A stretch of DNA of 64,000 nucleotides from positions 32,337,812 through 32,401,811 of the forward strand of contig CM037868.1 of NCBI GenBank assembly GCA_021292105.1, written 5' to 3'. Source of the DNA: Anadara kagoshimensis (lineage: Eukaryota > Mollusca > Bivalvia > Arcoida > Arcidae). A model generated the notes under the pieces. That model was given only the letters and a program-made list of their open reading frames with translations. It searched no databases and was not told where the DNA came from. The position numbers were made by a program, and so were the translations under genes. Position 1 is the first letter of the stretch, and the number at the start of each line of letters is the position of its first letter. Shown piece by piece: positions 12-61,908 of the stretch.

Positions 12-1540
12 ATGTATGTTTGTGATTGGCTTAGGGATTATGACTTGAACAGGAAACGGTATGTTTGTGATTGGCTTAGGGATTATGACTTGAACAGGAA
101 ACGGTATGTTTGTGATTGGCTTAGGGATTATGACTTGAACAGGAAACGGTATGTTTGTGATTGGCTTAGGGATTATGACTTGAACAGGAAACGGTATGTT
201 TGTGATTGGCTTAGGGATTATGACTTGAACAGTAAACGGTATGTTTGTGATTGGCTTAGGGATTGTGACATGAACAGGAAACGGTATGTTTGTGATTGGC
301 TTAGGAATTATGACATGAACAGGAAACGGTATGTTTGTGATTGGCTTAGGGATTATGACTTGAACAGGAAACGGTATGTTTGTGATTGGCTTAGGGATTA
401 TGACTTGAACAGGAAACGGTATGTTTGTGATTGGCTTAGGGACTGTGACATGAACAGGAAACGGTATGTTTGTGATTGGCTTATGGACTGTGACTTGAAC
501 AGGAAACGGTATGTTTGTGATTGGCTTAGGAATTATGACTTGAACAGTAAACGGTATGTTTGTGATTGGCTTAGGGATTATGACATGAACAGTAAACGGA
601 ATGTTTGTGATTGGCTTAGGGATTATGACTTGAACAGGAAACGGTATGTTTGTGATTGGCTTAGGGATTATGACTTGAACAGGAAACGGTATGTTTGTGA
701 TTGGCTTAGGGATTATGACTTGAACAGGAAACGGTATGTTTGTGATTGGCTTAGGGATTATGACTTGAACAGGAAACGGTATGTTTGTGATTGGCTTAGG
801 GATTATGACTTGAACAGTAAACGGTATGTTTGTGATTGGCTTAGGGACTGTGACATGAACAAGAAACGGTATGTTTGTGATTGGCTTAGGGACTGTGACA
901 TGAACAGGAAAAGGTATGTTTGTGATTGGCTTAGGGATTATGACATGAACAGGAAACGGTATGTTTGTGATTGGCTTAGGGATTATGACATGAACAGGAA
1001 ACGGTATGTTTGTGATTGGCTTAGGGATGGATTATGACATGAACAGCAAACGGTATGTTTGTGATTGGCTTAGGGACTGTGACTTGAACAGGAAACGGTA
1101 TGTTTGTGATTGGCTTAGGGATTGTGACTTGAACAGGAAACGGTATGTTTGTGATTGGCTCAGGGATTGTGACTTGAACAGGAAACGGTATGTTTGTGAT
1201 TGGCTTAGGGACTGTGACTTGAACAGGAAACGGTATGTTTGTGATTGGCTTAGGGACTGTGACTTGAACAGCAAACGGTATGTTTGTGATTGGCTTAGGG
1301 ACTGTGACTTGAACAGGAAACGGTATGTTTGTGATTAGCTTAGGAATTATGACATGAACAGGAAACGGTATGTTTGTGATTGGCTTAGGGATTATGACTT
1401 GAACAGGAAACGGTATGTTTGTGATTAGCTTAGGAATTATGACTTGAACAGGAAACGGTATGTTTGTGATTGGCTTAGGGATTGTGACTTGAATAGGAAA
1501 CGGTATGTTTGTGATTGGCTTAGGGACTGTGATCTAAACC
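12..1540 (+). repeat. 45-bp minisatellite array, about 34 units
   Basis: Head-to-tail units of 45 bp beginning TATGTTTGTGATTGGCTTAG and ending in GAACAGGAAACGG. Because 45 is a multiple of three, long ORFs run through it on both strands (15-residue period), but there is no start context, splice signal or codon bias to suggest translation. A 4-bp insertion near 1026 breaks the period. Units to its left are mostly GATTATGAC variants and those to its right mostly GACTGTGAC variants, so the array has at least two expansion histories. The unit is homologous to the retroelement tail and the 39-bp satellite described below. Confidence 0.95.
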
Positions 1541-1599
1541 ATTGTACCCTATTACTTAGTTCTATTCGTCTTGAATTAACAAGTATAATATTATATCAA

Positions 1600-2300
1600 T
1601 CAAAACAACAAACATACGGGATCATGTTCAAATGACAGTCCAAAAAATCAACTACAAACACACCGTTTCATGTTCAAATCGCAACCCAAAATCCTAACCA
1701 GAAACATATGTTGAAATCATAATCCAAAAGCCAACGACAAATACGCCAATCAATGTCCAAATCACAATCCCAAAAGCTACCCACAAACACACCGGTCAAT
1801 GTCTAAATCACAATCCCAAAAGCTGCCCACAAACATACCGTTCCATGTTAAAGGAACAATCGCAAAAGCCTAAAACAAACATAACGGTTAATATTCAAAT
1901 CATAATTCCAAAAGCCACTTATAAACATACTAATTGATGTTATAATCCAATAAAGTCAAACACAAACATACTGGTCCGTGTTCAAATCACAATCCTAAAA
2001 GTCAACCACAAACATACTGGTCCATGTCCAAATCACAATCCTTAAAGTCAACCACAAACATACCGGTCCATATTAAAAAAGTCAACCACACACATGCTGG
2101 TCCATGTTCAAATTACAATCCAAAAAGTCAACCACAAACATACTGGTCTATGTTCAAAACACAAATCAAAAAGTCAACCACAAACATACTGAACTACGTT
2201 CAAAACGCAATCATAAAAGTCAACCACAAACATACTGGTCTATGTTCAAATTACAATCCAAAAAGTCAACCACAAACATACTGGTCTATGTTTAAAGCAC
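1600..2300 (-). repeat. Decayed array of the same motif, opposite orientation
   Basis: Read on the minus strand, this stretch is a run of diverged 40-50 bp units of the type AGTATGTTTGTGGTTGACTT followed by a TTGTGATTTGAACATGGACC-like half. It is the same motif as in the upstream array but inverted and much more degraded. The 60 bases between 1540 and 1600 mark the inversion boundary and look unrelated. Confidence 0.75.
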
Positions 2301-2479
2301 AATTTAAAACCAAAACACATCCATACCATATTTCTGAGTGGTTTTACATTTACTATATTCGCAGTCGAACTACGTCCAGGTTTCTAAGTTGAAATGTTAC
2401 AGTATACTGGAGTACACGAAAAAAACCGCAAACCCTCTTTAAATTAGGACCTACCCTAATTAGATCCGAAATTACCGCT

Positions 2480-2620
2480 AGGCTATAAACAAAATTGAGA
2501 CCAAACAACGACCGATTATTTTCCTTTGGACTAAGAATTATCGACCTTGATACCTTATCTTTATACATGACGTTAAACCAGTGTCGTTGTTTATTTCTAT
2601 TGTATCATTACAATTGACGT
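2480..2620 (-). pseudogene. Broken partial duplicate of the secreted-protein last exon
   Basis: On the minus strand the sequence encoding NDTIEINNDTG, then (in another frame) YKDKVSRSIILSP, matches NETVERNNDTW...DKDKVSRTLTLY of the intact exon at 2722-3098. Nucleotide identity is obvious over 2536-2613 and fades toward 2480. A small deletion at the NNDTG point shifts the frame, and a block corresponding to the YKHD residues is missing. The 5' half of the exon is not duplicated. This is a tandem, truncated, frameshifted copy lying just downstream of the real exon in gene orientation. Confidence 0.6.
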
Positions 2621-2721
2621 TTCGCCGACCACGCCCCCAATTAATATTCCGACACTGGTCGCCATCACGGCACCAAAGCAGCGTCAAGGCAACTAATGAC
2701 GTACTAGTGTCAGTGACGTCA

Positions 2722-3098
2722 CTAAACGGCACAATTCAGGCCGATTTTAATTCTTTTTGCGTCTAATTCAAGCATGTCGGGCCTTTGTCGGAACATTGTG
2801 GGCGTGACCGGCGATACGTCAATTAAGAAAGCGACATACAATTTGTACGGGTTGGAGTTGAAAGCGGCCGATTCATAAAGAGTTAACGTTCTTGATACCT
2901 TATCTTTATCATGTTTATATGTAACGTTAAACCATGTGTCGTTGTTTCTTTCTACTGTTTCATTAGAGTTAAGATGTGGACATTCGATGTAATTCCTACA
3001 TATTGGTAACTCTCCGATAACATTTTCTTCTGTCCTCTTCGGTTCCCGATATAACGTTTCTGTTTTGAACAAATATAAGCAGTTCACAATCGCACTAC
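2722..3098 (-). CDS. Terminal exon of a probable secreted glycoprotein
   Basis: A good acceptor (TTTTGTTTTACAG, minus strand) opens a 377-nt exon that ends at a TAG at 2722-2724. The frame needs one base from the preceding exon, then reads SAIVNCLYLFKTETLYREP and ends RIKIGLNCAV. Five cysteines and possible N-glycosylation sites (NET, NDT, NVT) suit an extracellular domain, but I do not recognise a family. The signal-peptide exon at 6731-6955 ends in phase 0, so the two cannot be joined directly without hitting a stop. Either a small exon between them is unseen or was lost to the insertions in the intron, or the locus is decayed. The partial duplicate downstream supports this being a genuine older exon. 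Confidence 0.5.
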
Positions 3099-3116
3099 CT
3101 GTAAAACAAAAAAATC

Positions 3117-3317
3117 AATGGGGTTAGCCGCTGTACCACGTGATCAATACCCCTTAACGTTTGTGCGGAACGTTTTAGAAAACGTCAACGTCACAGATTC
3201 CCGGAATGACGTCGTTTTCGCGGAAAAACGTTAACTCATGCGATTCCACATCCATTGGAAATACGTGTCCCGCATAAACGTAAGTGGGTATCACCTGGTA
3301 CAGCGGCGAACTCCATT
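3117..3317. mobile_element. ~200-bp palindromic MITE, copy 1
   Basis: Inverted ends AATGGGGTTAGCCGCTGTAC (left) and the complement of a GTACAGCGGCGAACTCCATT right end enclose a CG-containing core with AACGT motifs. It lies less than 20 bp from the splice acceptor of the exon at 2722-3098. A second copy is at 26132-26344. Confidence 0.8.
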
Positions 3318-3349
3318 ACAAATGGTAATGCATTTTTTCAAGAAAATAT

Positions 3350-3655
3350 CTCCTGTAAACAATTTATCTTCCTTTTACTGAAGAATGGTATTGTTGATAA
3401 GTTTGATGTTTCTGTGTCCAGGATTGCCCTGGATATATTTGACGTCCCATAGTTCAATGTTTCTTTCACACAATTTCGATTACACACGTGGCGGGTGTAG
3501 CTAGCTTAACAGGAGGTGCTTACCCTTCCGGAGCAACCGGACTCACTTCCCTGGTGGAAGTTCACTGTCTAACCTAACTTGTCAGTTGCAAAGTTTTCAC
3601 TTTTCTTCTGGATTGTGTTTCGGACATGGATTAGTATGTTTGTTTTTTATTGCAT
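3350..3655 (+). mobile_element. Retroelement 3' end: RT C-terminus plus tail
   Basis: The reading frame ends [17 protein letters not shown]-stop, the last residues of the reverse-transcriptase-like ORF seen more fully at 4338 and 21610. The 3' UTR follows (TGGCGGGTGTAGCTAGC, GGAGCAACCGGACTCACTTC), then the tail GTTTTCACTTTTCTTCTGG...GGATTAGTATGTTTG. It is 5' truncated. A shorter second tail piece (GTGAGACTAGCTAAAC to CACCTGGTCTCACTTC) follows at 3660-3725. Confidence 0.7.
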
Positions 3656-3962
3656 AGTTTGGTGGGTGAGACTAGCTAAACATAAGACAGTTAACTTTCA
3701 AGAGCACCTGGTCTCACTTCACTGATCCGCGCGAATAATTTAATTTGCCATTTTTAATGGTTTACACCAAAGGCAAGACTGTCACTTTTTTCGTGGTTGC
3801 ATATTATGGTCTGGTGGTGTAGAGGGCAGTAATGGTGTCATTATTTCCTGTCAAGATCTTTTATATCGAGGCTATCAGTTTGTGGATGGTGTAGGAAACA
3901 AGGTGTAAGGAGAAAACAACGTACCTAGAGTAAGGGAATTGAAAACTTTTTTTTCAAAATAG

Positions 3963-4052
3963 GATCGGTCTGGGTTAGATTCGAACCTCGGCTATTAGGA
4001 ACGTCGTGATCTATTTAAGCGTGATTTTAACCACTTGGCCACCGATGTTCCT
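3963..4052 (-). mobile_element. tRNA-like SINE head (family D)
   Basis: On the minus strand the A box GTGGCCAAGTGGTT and B box GGTTCGAATCT are about 45 bases apart, as in a tRNA-derived Pol III promoter. The same head occurs at 12225-12315. No cloverleaf good enough for a functional tRNA is seen. Confidence 0.5.
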
Positions 4053-4337
4053 ATTGTAAGAATGATGTCACAAAGTATATCTTAGTGATTCGTTTCCTCT
4101 CTAATGTTTATACATTTACTGTTCAAATCATGGTGTTCGTGACAGTGAGTTATAATATTATATGCTTATTTCCTTTAGAAAATCCAATAAAAGGAGGTTG
4201 TGTGCTATGGGCCCTTCCCGGCACCATAATTTTCATAACTTTTGAAGGGGAGAATATCTTAGATATGTTACCGAACACATTGCCAATCACTAAAGTACAT
4301 GGTGTTTGTCCAATTTTCAAAACTCTTAATTTTTATG

Positions 4338-4775
4338 TTTTACAAAGACTACACCTGCTTATGGTGTATTTGTTTCCCAATTAATACGCTATGGTAGAGC
4401 TTGTTCCATTACTTTGTAAAACAAAATAGGCTGTTTGGAAATAAATTGTTGACTCAGTGATATTGCAAGCCTAGGCTTATCAAGGCCCTAAAAGGTTTTA
4501 TGGCCGTCATTACAGTATTGTTGACAAGTTTGATGTCTCTGTGTCCAGGATTGCCTTGGATATATTTGACGCCTCAAAGCTCCATGTTCTTGATTACACA
4601 CGTGGCGGGTGTAGCTAGCAAAACAGTAGGTACTTATCCGTCCGGAGCACCCGGCCTCACTTCCCTGGTGGAAGTTCACGTCTCTAACCTAACTTGTCAG
4701 TTCCAAAGTTTTTACTTTGCTTCTGGATTGTGATTTGGACATGGATTAGTATGTTTGTTTTTGACTAAATTCTAC
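4338..4775 (+). mobile_element. Retroelement 3' end with longest RT remnant
   Basis: Frame pieces read [18 protein letters not shown], which corresponds to the (S)PAYGVYISQLIRYAR-type motif near the C-terminus of retroelement reverse transcriptases. Remnants of the NKLL...K.R(L)IKAL.KFYDRH segment and the FDVS...ALDIFD end follow, interrupted by frameshifts. The 3' UTR with GGCGGGTGTAGCTAGC and the CACCCGGCCTCACTTCCCTG block leads into the tail TTTTTACTTTGCTTCTGGAT and ends TTAGTATGTTTGTTTTT. A non-LTR or Penelope-like origin is inferred; the upstream part is not present. Confidence 0.65.
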
Positions 4776-4856
4776 AGAAAAAATCATTATATTCTGGTAA
4801 AGGGCCAAAAATGGCCTATGGTGCACAGCCTCTTTTGAATAATGGTCAATACTGTT

Positions 4857-5139
4857 TACTTACCTGGGTCTAGTCGTAATCGAAAATATGTATGCGCATC
4901 CGTGATTGTCATGAAATAGGAAAATTTTGGCGCTATGGGGATTTAACATGACCAAAATGACCATGTTTACACCGGAAGTTATGCTTTTAGTGACGCGAAA
5001 AAGGATCCGCCATTTGCCTGGTTTTTCAACATGTAAACTCCCCATAGCGTCAAACGTTTTACTCTCTGATGAACTATTATTATACGCTAATCGCAGATGC
5101 ACATACAGATTTCCTGTCACGACTACGTACAAGTAAGTG
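4857..5139. mobile_element. Foldback element, ~110-bp imperfect arms
   Basis: The left arm from CTTACCTGGGTCTAGTCGTA to GCGCTATGGGGATTTAACAT pairs, with small gaps, with the right arm from CATGTAAACTCCCCATAGCG to GACTACGTACAAGTAAG. The loop is about 70 bp. No coding content; short ORFs on both strands are consequences of the palindrome. Confidence 0.75.
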
Positions 5140-58645: not shown

Positions 58646-58795
58646 ATTGACCGATGTGACCCCCATATGTTAATGTAACAATCCATTTCTGTATACGTGT
58701 TGTTCCGGATCGCGTTTACTAGAGTACCCCATGTCATGGAAACTCGCGCCTTCGGCGCTCGCACCTAGCATTGATATACTAGTAATGCTCAACCC

Positions 58796-61594
58796 CACAG
58801 TGTGGGAACGGAAGTTGAGTCAAACTGTACAGTTGTCGGTAGCTCTGTTTATCGAAGCGAGGAATGAAAACAGTGGAGTCAAACGTAAGTAAAAATATGT
58901 AAAATTATTGTTGTTATGAAGTGTTGTGAGATTTTTCATAGGTACATGGATATCACTATGTTAATGCAATTTTTAATTATCCAACACATTTTGTGAAAAA
59001 TCAAGCCTAAAACTTTTATTCGTTTGTTGAACATGATAGATCACAGCGGAATTTTCATGAATCCACGATTCATTCTCAATTTTCTCTATATTACTATTCT
59101 ATTTAATACCATTCTGAAGACAGTTTGCAAGCTATGAATGTTAAAAACAACTTGTGGCTTATTACAGTACTTAGAAGTTTGGAGAAAACTTCAAAACACG
59201 ATTTTATTGGACTGTGTGGTTTTCTGTTTACTGTACAGGTAGCTCACATTTTATGAAATTGTACTGTACAGGTAGCTCGCAACTGGCATTCAAATTCAAA
59301 GTATAGAAAGTATAAGGAACGCTTTCATTTAATAGAAATGCATGTATCCATGTATCACGATTAATTTAAAAAAAAACAAGGTTTGATTTTTTGTATTTGG
59401 GTTTCAGGGGTATAAACGTAGGGTTGCTATCTAAAATGCGTGTATTAGGCGTGACATTCATATTCTAAGGTCATCAACGATCTAAAATACATCAAGTCAT
59501 AAAAAGGACATGGTCAGACAATACTGTTCTATGTAAATTAAGGCTAATATTGTTTATTATGAACAATATACAACTGAATACTATTATGTCTCTAAAATAG
59601 TAAAAGGATATAGATATAATCATAGAATGTGAAGAATCACGCCTGGGTAACGCAGTTTTAGAAGGCTCTATGGCATAAATTGTCTAAATATCATAAAGCC
59701 TCAAATTTGTTTAAAACAAAATAAACAACGTTTACGTTCTAGACTGTTCATTTGGTCATTGATTGGTAAATATCGTTCAGCTTTCATACCTAAACCGGTT
59801 TTTCCGCGATGGAACTCATGGTATTTTACATCTTTCATAATGATGCAACACAGAAAAGGCCATTGTAACTTAATTCTCATGGTCCAGTGATTTTCTTTGA
59901 TCATATAAAGTTTAACAAGACAATTTTGCTGAAACTTGATTTGTAAGTACAACTTTTAGATGCTTTATGTATTTCAACACAAAGCAATTCATTGTGACAA
60001 ATTTTTATGACTCAGTGACTTTTAGATGATTTTTAAAGTAATAAAACAATTCTTATTAAACCTGATTTTAGGTACAATTTGGGATGCTTTACATATGACA
60101 ACACAAAGTTGGTCTTTGTGACCTAGTTTTTCATGGTCATGTGATTTTGTTAGATAGCTTTTATAGTAGTTTGATGATTTTGATCAACATTGATCGCATA
60201 TCAAGTCAAAGAAATTTATAAAGTTGCAGAGGATGAATGTCAAAGTCTTCTACATGTAACAATAATGTTATCAATTAAAGTTATTTATGTTGCCTTTTGC
60301 ATTTTCCTGAAGGTTGTAGTAAATAGTAAAACATTTAACACGTCTGGTTATTAATGTGCAAATGAAAAAGGTCATAATTATATAGCATCTGTGCAGAAAA
60401 ATAACAATTTCCGGAAGTTGTTACACTTTCATCTTCATTCAAATGCATCCATCATTGCAACTATTAACACTATCAATTATTTTCTAATGTAAACGTTTGC
60501 CACCATTGAGGGTGGTGACTTACCCAGCGATTGAGCCCTGCTCAAACGCAATGTCTTGTTCCAAAATAGTTTTATATATGAAAATATTAAGGAATTTTTT
60601 TCTCTGCTGAAACCTGTTAATCCCTTAATGATCGGGTCCAGAACATATACCTCAGTTGATTCGTTTGGTATAAGAATTGTGTTGTCTTTCTCGTATTCCC
60701 TTGGGATGATGTGGAAATTTTTTAATTCGAATATCTCCTTGATTGAGGTCTGTTTTATTAAATTTCAGTTCCAAATCCTTGTGAAATATTATACAATGGT
60801 CGACAACCTCAGAAAAATTAATTTTGCTTTACTTTTGCAGTATAAACAATGGAATCGTTTCGGTGTTCTTTTAACATTTGAAAATTAAGAAAATCCATCG
60901 ATAGACATGGAAGATATGGAGAGGACACGATATTGAGACAGACAACCAGACGGATGCACGAACGGGCGAATAGACTGACGGACAGACAGGGTGATTTCTA
61001 TATACCCCTGAACTTCGTTTGCGGGGGGGGGGGGGTATAATAATGCATTAAACCTTGAATTATTTTGTTTTAATTTTAAGCTACCTGTACAGAAAAATTA
61101 CAGATATTTAGAGCTACCTGTACAGTATTTTTCGAGCTACCTGTACAGTAAACAATCTCCAAGGTGCGAAGAAAAATCTTATTTATAACAATAACCATTT
61201 AAAGGAGGGTGATGTCATCTTAATATATGTGTAACTTTATATTAAAAGTTGTCTTAAGTATTGTTTGTTACACTAGAAAATCCATCACGCTAGAGAATTT
61301 ACGCATTTTTCACTACAAGTCGATGTATTTTATCCAACTGTCTCGTGTTCAAGTGTTATTATTGTCGAGTGTATAAAGATATAAATGACAACGAATTCTT
61401 AAAATGGTAAATAATTTTCATCGTCAAATTTCTCCATTTAAATTTCTATCCAGATCTTGCATTATGTGCTTAATACAAGTTAAAAAGTACCCACCAACCG
61501 TTTCAGACATATTGTTTTTATTTCTTCTCTCGCTTCGATGAACAGAGCTACCGAAAACTGTACAGTTTGACTCAACTTCCGTTCCCACACTGTG
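58796..61594. mobile_element. 2,799-bp element with CACAGTG termini: Transib/RAG-like, non-autonomous
   Basis: Terminal inverted repeats of 66 bp with 2 mismatches begin CACAGTGTGGGAACGGAAGT on both sides. A perfect 5-bp target duplication AACCC lies at 58791-58795 and 61595-61599. The terminal heptamer CACAGTG is identical to the canonical V(D)J recombination signal heptamer and fits the Transib terminal consensus; both Transib and RAG make GC-biased 5-bp duplications. Further in, ACTGTACAGGTAGCTC-type motifs occur twice on the left (59235 and 59266) and, inverted, three times on the right (61079, 61111, 61135). They resemble TIR positions ~30-50. No transposase-like ORF; the longest is a 110-codon plus ORF at 60556 without recognisable domain. 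It includes a bivalve repeat at 60890-61035. Confidence 0.8.
61021..61033 (+). repeat. G homopolymer
   Basis: 12-13 G residues within a 'tatacccc/ggggtata' repeat. Confidence 0.9.
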
Positions 61595-61908
61595 AACCCC
61601 CCTTTCAAAAAATCCTGTATCCGTCCCTGTATTGGGTTAAAATTTTACTGGCTGTTAATATATAGAGGTGGTCTAAAGGCAGGTTCGAATGTAATGTACA
61701 TTTTAGAAGATGCCACTTATCAGCTGCTTGTTATAATTCTATGCATTTATTATTTTACCTCAAATTATTTCTTATAATTTTTTCTCATTGTGATGACGTA
61801 AGTCTACTGTTTATTATCAACTAAAAAATGTATATTTCAGGACATCGCACACAAATTCAACGTTGTTAACCCCTTTATGAACCCCCAAGTTTCAAAGTGA
61901 AAGAAGGC

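Follow-up and report, generated by a model that had tools for sequence, protein, structure and literature searches.

The locus studied here raises the question of whether the ends of a DNA transposon are sufficient to identify the transposase that moves it. The window, a 64,000-nt stretch of the genome of the bivalve Anadara kagoshimensis (GenBank assembly GCA_021292105.1, contig CM037868.1, positions 32,337,812 to 32,401,811 of the forward strand), contains at 58796-61594 an element with ends resembling the CACAGTG heptamer of recombination signal sequences (RSS) and with a 5-bp target-site duplication (TSD), from which a preliminary description had proposed that a Transib or RAG-like transposase moves it in trans. 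The present analysis instead indicates, with a probability of about 0.9, that the window element arose by internal deletion from a P-related lineage of cut-and-paste transposons and is itself non-autonomous, its proposed mover being a P-like/YqaJ transposase with the putative mechanism outlined below. The evidence comprises decayed coding remnants within the family, homologous fuller relatives of about 8.3 kb and the predicted fold of their transposase.

Structure of the window element

The coordinates of the element were confirmed exactly, giving a non-autonomous transposon of 2,799 bp. Its two terminal inverted repeats (TIRs), 74 nt each and 93% complementary, start with CACAGTGTGGGAACGG, and AACCC is present on both flanks. 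The motif GTACAGGTAGCTC occurs about 420-520 bp in from the ends in two forward and three inverted copies (one inverted copy with one mismatch), and a CTGTACAG block lies 22 bp past the heptamer at both ends. The features, in window positions, are as follows.

58791-58795, no strand: left TSD, AACCC, from the sequence and uninterrupted paralogous sites
58796-58869, forward strand: 5' TIR, 74 nt, starting CACAGTGTGGGAACGGAAG, with a boundary common to other copies
58796-58802, forward strand: RSS-like terminal heptamer CACAGTG, from the window sequence and the ends of other copies
58825-58832, forward strand: CTGTACAG block within the TIR, candidate transposase site (putative function)
59233-59245, forward strand: subterminal motif GTACAGGTAGCTC, copy 1, of the array found in 19/19 copies
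59266-59278, forward strand: subterminal motif GTACAGGTAGCTC, copy 2
60651-60869, reverse strand: decayed remnant, in two frames, of the N-terminal zinc-finger region of a P-like transposase
61078-61090, reverse strand: inverted subterminal motif GTACAGGTAGCTC, copy 3, one mismatch
61111-61123, reverse strand: inverted subterminal motif GTACAGGTAGCTC, copy 4
61134-61146, reverse strand: inverted subterminal motif GTACAGGTAGCTC, copy 5
61521-61594, reverse strand: 3' TIR, ending in CCCACACTGTG
61595-61599, no strand: right TSD, AACCC

Copies, target-site duplications and empty sites

A 211-bp sequence covering the 5' end of the window element served as the query in a search of the genome (1.115 Gb in 36 contigs). 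Among 518 candidates, of which 40 were scored, this yielded 40 matches at 98-100% identity, the window copy counted, plus a further partial one. The match started at query base 7, exactly position 58796, in 31 of the 40 and at query bases 1-6 in the other nine, and this precise shared start at such high identity indicates that the boundary of the element is not a product of chance. Twenty copies were retrieved, and both ends were found in 19, the 4.5 kb taken for the remaining one (L015) including only one end; all 19 two-ended copies kept the array of two forward and three inverted motifs with at most one mismatch each.

TSDs were tallied over 29 distinct two-ended copies, with L015, one-end loci and duplicates of the same copy excluded. 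The duplication was 5 bp long in 25 copies, 6 bp in two and 7 bp in one (L034, where it may represent 5 bp plus chance matches), and was absent in one (L038). The latter, in the region of G000:C18:38398081, is a 3,254-bp copy whose outer flanks are mutually inverted repeats (gtcatcttgcatagt / actgtgcaagatgac). The TSDs were AT-rich, with a GC content of 24% compared with 36% in the window. Among the 58 ends, the terminal heptamer was CACAGTG in 47, CACTGTG in 10 and CACAGTA in one; CAC started every end (58/58), and CACWGTG was present in 57. Moreover, 15 window-type copies had a mean pairwise identity of 98.2% and departed by 1.0% from their majority sequence; such identity reveals a recent burst and thus a recently active element.

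When the flanks of the window copy were joined, they matched an uninterrupted paralogous site (C12:31824715) over their full length at 95%. Across the scored places (40 of 1,932 candidates), 38 spanned the junction and the other two were the window's own flanks. Four junction alignments were checked: L069 and L071 read CTCAACCCCCCTTT exactly, with a single AACCC, L070 carried a substitution, and L066 had small indels at the junction. The flanks (58676-58795 and 61600-61719) also place the window copy inside another abundant repeat, as seen from the 1,932 first-look candidates and the 38 of 40 scored places that are not its own flanks.

Therefore, the structural part of the preliminary description, namely a mobile element with CACAGTG ends, a 5-bp duplication and a 2+3 subterminal array, was borne out by highly similar copies, TSDs and paralogous empty sites, and the other copies and empty sites that it had proposed to seek were found. 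At the level of sequence, the TIRs, boundaries, TSDs, empty sites, coding remnants and homologous ends are all in place.

Coding remnants and fuller relatives

Two variant copies with window-type ends (L023 and L024) carry coding remnants on the minus strand. When the genome was searched with a 129-aa remnant, 258 candidates came up, of which 150 were scored as matches. These include the window copy (C12:32398459-32398680) and, on C5 at 39% identity, a frame open over 446 codons. The remnant of the window copy (60651-60869) matches that of L023 at 79% over 38 aa and 52% over 77 columns (E = 5e-18), and several segments of ORF1 (open reading frame 1) of the C5 element align with L023 and L024 at 35-75% identity (joint E = 2e-51 and 2e-46, respectively). 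The earlier view of a non-autonomous element moved in trans is upheld.

The C5 element (C5:1817684-1825944; 8,261 bp) has TIRs CACAGTGTATGAACGGAACTGTACGC / CACAGTGTGTGAACGGAACTGTACGC, the TSD AGGAT, and a subterminal motif, CTGTACCGGTAGT/C, in three copies at the gene-start end and two inverted copies at the other. Its TIR aligns to that of the window element about 8 standard deviations (s.d.) above shuffles (0/500 as good). Furthermore, a 220-codon frame with C2H2 fingers lies on the minus strand, convergent with the C5 transposase gene, and a convergent C2H2-finger frame (PF00096, 3e-20) was also found in a relative on C2, which is 8,307 bp long with CACTGTG ends and a 6-bp TSD (ATATAT). A deleted relative of 3.5 kb on C14 has CACTGTG ends and the TSD ATAAC. 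At 11 further relative loci, the 5' end was a clear CACNGTG in six (L055, L058, L059, L060, L062, and L063), weak in two (L056 and L061) and absent in three (L053, L054, and L057).

Many TIR elements capture pieces of genes. The window element might accordingly belong to an unknown superfamily and merely hold a captured piece of a P-like transposase gene, a reading in keeping with the failure to find an intact autonomous copy of window type among the 96 scored of 296 candidates. It is very unlikely, as the window family and the C5 element share not only a gene fragment but also the TIR, the subterminal array, the TSD size and the gene orientation.

With regard to the wider set of relatives, locus L054 (G000:C1:25758600-25766900) has a single frame of 1,345 codons (944-4978) in which both catalytic Asp motifs, the YqaJ domain between them and a late Glu motif were identified by eye; it is possibly an intron-less intact copy or a domesticated one. 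Many of the named transposase relatives are bivalve proteins. Three others (P0028, P0042, and P0071) are labelled as belonging to bacterial metagenome-assembled genomes (Sedimenticola and Thiodiazotropha), probably reflecting contamination of symbiont assemblies by the host animal.

Domains and predicted fold of the transposase

The fuller relatives encode a large transposase with a C2H2-like finger close to the N-terminus and an RNase H-type DDE core of predicted P-element fold. A lambda-exonuclease/YqaJ domain separates the first catalytic Asp of this core from the second, and the catalytic Glu follows only after a long stretch. ORF2 of the C5 element contains the YqaJ domain (3.7e-7) together with a sub-threshold match to the P-type RNase H domain (PF21787, 0.0016), and the YqaJ domain was located between the two Asp motifs in 38/38 homologues having all three motifs. 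The finger near the N-terminus was found by its pattern (C-x2-C..H-x3-5-H), and no THAP domain was matched in Pfam scans of the C5 ORFs and homologues. A search of the PDB by sequence with C5 ORF2 gave no matches; of the rows obtained with a 65-row profile, four were exonucleases and one, a glycoprotein (E = 0.049), looks like chance.

The predicted model of a homologue (P0018) scored 30.5 against the structure of P, 13.2 against HzTransib and 11.9 against RAG1, while the order was reversed for a RAG1-like control model. The Foldseek list for P0018 included three rows with E up to 0.001, most of the others (e.g., kinases) being chance. For the GTP-binding insertion domain (beta5-alpha4), alignment of 324 residues within chain numbers 200-569 suggests that part of it may match. 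The P-type RNase H core with DDE that marks the P superfamily is present in the predicted protein.

The ends of the Drosophila P element read CATGA. Those of zebrafish P (Pdre2/THAP9) read CATAC, with subterminal inverted repeats at a spacing of about 400 bp (PMC10983969). P elements duplicate 8 bp of their target, encode THAP domains and have ends that start with CAT (PMC7776569, PMC10983969). The window lineage resembles these elements in its predicted fold and in its subterminal inverted repeats (19/19 copies, and also C5). It differs from them in a TSD of 5 rather than 8 bp, CACNGTG rather than either P-element end, the YqaJ insert, a C2H2-like finger in place of a THAP match, and a second, convergent zinc-finger gene. 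The fold and the subterminal repeats would also suit an ordinary P element with the 5-bp TSDs as a sampling quirk, which is extremely unlikely given that 25/29 TSDs were exactly 5 bp and 0/29 were 8 bp, that the ends start with CAC and that the Pfam scans gave no THAP match. The THAP domains, CAT ends and 8-bp TSDs of P elements proper thus set the window family apart as P-related yet a separate lineage.

The YqaJ domain is also known from ISL2EU (PHIS) transposons, where it lies on an ORF separate from that of the transposase, and which have AT dinucleotide TSDs and usually GG ends (PMC4482050). This domain is the only likeness; the 5-bp TSD, the CAC ends and the embedding of YqaJ in a P-like transposase all differ, and assignment to ISL2EU is close to negligible in probability. 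IS481EU was considered for its variable TSDs and dropped on account of its TNT..AYA ends (PMC10045372).

The Transib or RAG-like reading

The CACAGTG heptamer and the 5-bp TSD are shared with Transib (including HzTransib), and also with RAG-like (RAGL)/ProtoRAG elements, which moreover resemble the fuller relatives in having two convergent genes. In addition, the genome does encode one divergent protein of the RAG1 superfamily in an open frame of 832 codons, the single match of a genome search with the RAG1 profile (PF12940), located on C8 (30.8 bits; cut-off 25). In the 9.5 kb around this gene, no matching TIR, window-type end or subterminal motif was found, and the pairs obtained when its surroundings were scanned for TIRs and TSDs were all AT-rich and chance-like. 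The TSDs of ProtoRAG, Transib and RAG are GC-leaning (PMC8289069), whereas those of the window family are AT-rich. The TIR consensus of protostome RAGL elements, CACTWMCAAACKTYKBB (PMC7204232), does not fit CACAGTGTGGGAACGG, and by eye the window end CACAGTGTGGGAACGGA departs from it.

Most importantly, the coding remnants and the homologous fuller elements are P-like. Unlike Transib, the lineage combines a P-like transposase bearing a nuclease insert with a subterminal array, and unlike RAGL/ProtoRAG, the gene pair of the C5 and C2 elements consists of a YqaJ/P-like transposase and a C2H2 zinc-finger protein rather than RAG1L and RAG2L, no dedicated RAG2 profile search having been part of this comparison. 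The preliminary description had itself regarded a transposase of another superfamily in an autonomous relative as contradicting its Transib or RAG1 attribution; the fuller relatives encode such a transposase, and this attribution is therefore abandoned as highly unlikely. The subterminal repeats, which it had called atypical of Transib, are a P-element feature (PMC7776569, PMC10983969).

Strength of the P-related assignment and proposed mechanism

Several observations weigh against a P-related origin of the window element. No intact element with the exact window-type TIR was found in the genome search with C5 ORF1 (96 scored of 296 candidates). The C5 element is a cousin of the window family (63% over 76 aa in the longest good match of ORF1 to L023), its ORF1 matches the window copy directly only weakly (E = 0.02), so that the connection passes through the variants, its TIR is 11 bp shorter owing to a missing stretch, and its frames are split, by introns or decay. 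Beyond the heptamer, the C14 and C2 ends resemble the window TIR weakly (2.9 s.d., a level reached by 5 and 4 of 500 shuffles, respectively), and TIR/TSD scans of intact relatives on C1 and C15 gave no convincing pair. Furthermore, the fold is a prediction that comes from a homologue and not from the window element's own protein, and the PF21787 support for the relation to P is marginal (best E = 7.5e-5; 16-20 bits, below the cut-off of 24.6).

On the P-related assignment, we infer that the P-like/YqaJ transposase, or an unseen close relative, mobilises the window family. In the P element, the transposase binds sites close to the TIRs, brings the two ends together and cleaves, and insertion takes place with a stagger of 8 bp (PMC7776569). 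By analogy, the transposase of the fuller relatives, with the convergent C2H2 zinc-finger gene as the putative partner of its own gene, would bind the GTACAGGTAGCTC array in the subterminal region and, inside the TIR, the CTGTACAG block, pair the ends, cleave beside CACNGTG and insert into AT-rich target DNA with a 5-bp stagger; the exonuclease-type domain might conceivably serve in end processing or gap repair.

The spacing between heptamer and inner block also differs among families: it is 11 bp in the C5 (both ends) and C3 families, compared with 22 bp in the window family. In the C3 relative, the block reads GTGCAC and was seen at one end. The two spacers are one helical turn apart. A review likens the 9/21-bp spacing of P ends to the 12/23 spacing of RSS (PMC7776569). 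Here, both ends of one element have the same spacer, and hence an asymmetry of the 12/23 kind is absent and the parallel amounts to no more than a lead.

Implications

A CACAGTG end with a 5-bp duplication invites a Transib or RAG reading from the ends alone. The presence of a P-like transposase behind the same signature means that this signature by itself does not point to RAG or Transib, and end-based claims need the transposase. It also offers a natural comparison for the recognition of a CAC heptamer, and the production of a 5-bp stagger, by a transposase from a different family. The exonuclease-type domain inside a DDE transposase fold, in turn, prompts the testable question of a role in processing the ends or in repair. 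In bivalves, YqaJ gene families have been counted as recombinases (PMC10225492) and as endogenous viral elements (PMC7826175), and some of their members may be parts of P-like/YqaJ transposons.

Elements that combine CACNGTG ends, a 5-bp TSD, a P-like transposase in which an exonuclease-type domain is embedded, and a convergent zinc-finger partner could, at slightly less than even odds, represent a lineage of animal DNA transposons that is undescribed and of superfamily rank. No P-like transposon with YqaJ and 5-bp TSDs was described in the open literature searched, and with Repbase and subscription journals outside this scope the novelty is provisional; the accessible part of a 2023 paper on TCR-alpha (PMC10322711) likewise describes no element of the window type. 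If such a lineage is real, its RSS-like ends and 5-bp stagger would either have converged independently on those of RAG and Transib or have been inherited from an ancestor shared by the P and RAG transposase families, and the 11/22 spacing in sister families would add a further parallel to the 9/21 spacing of P ends and the 12/23 spacing of RSS.
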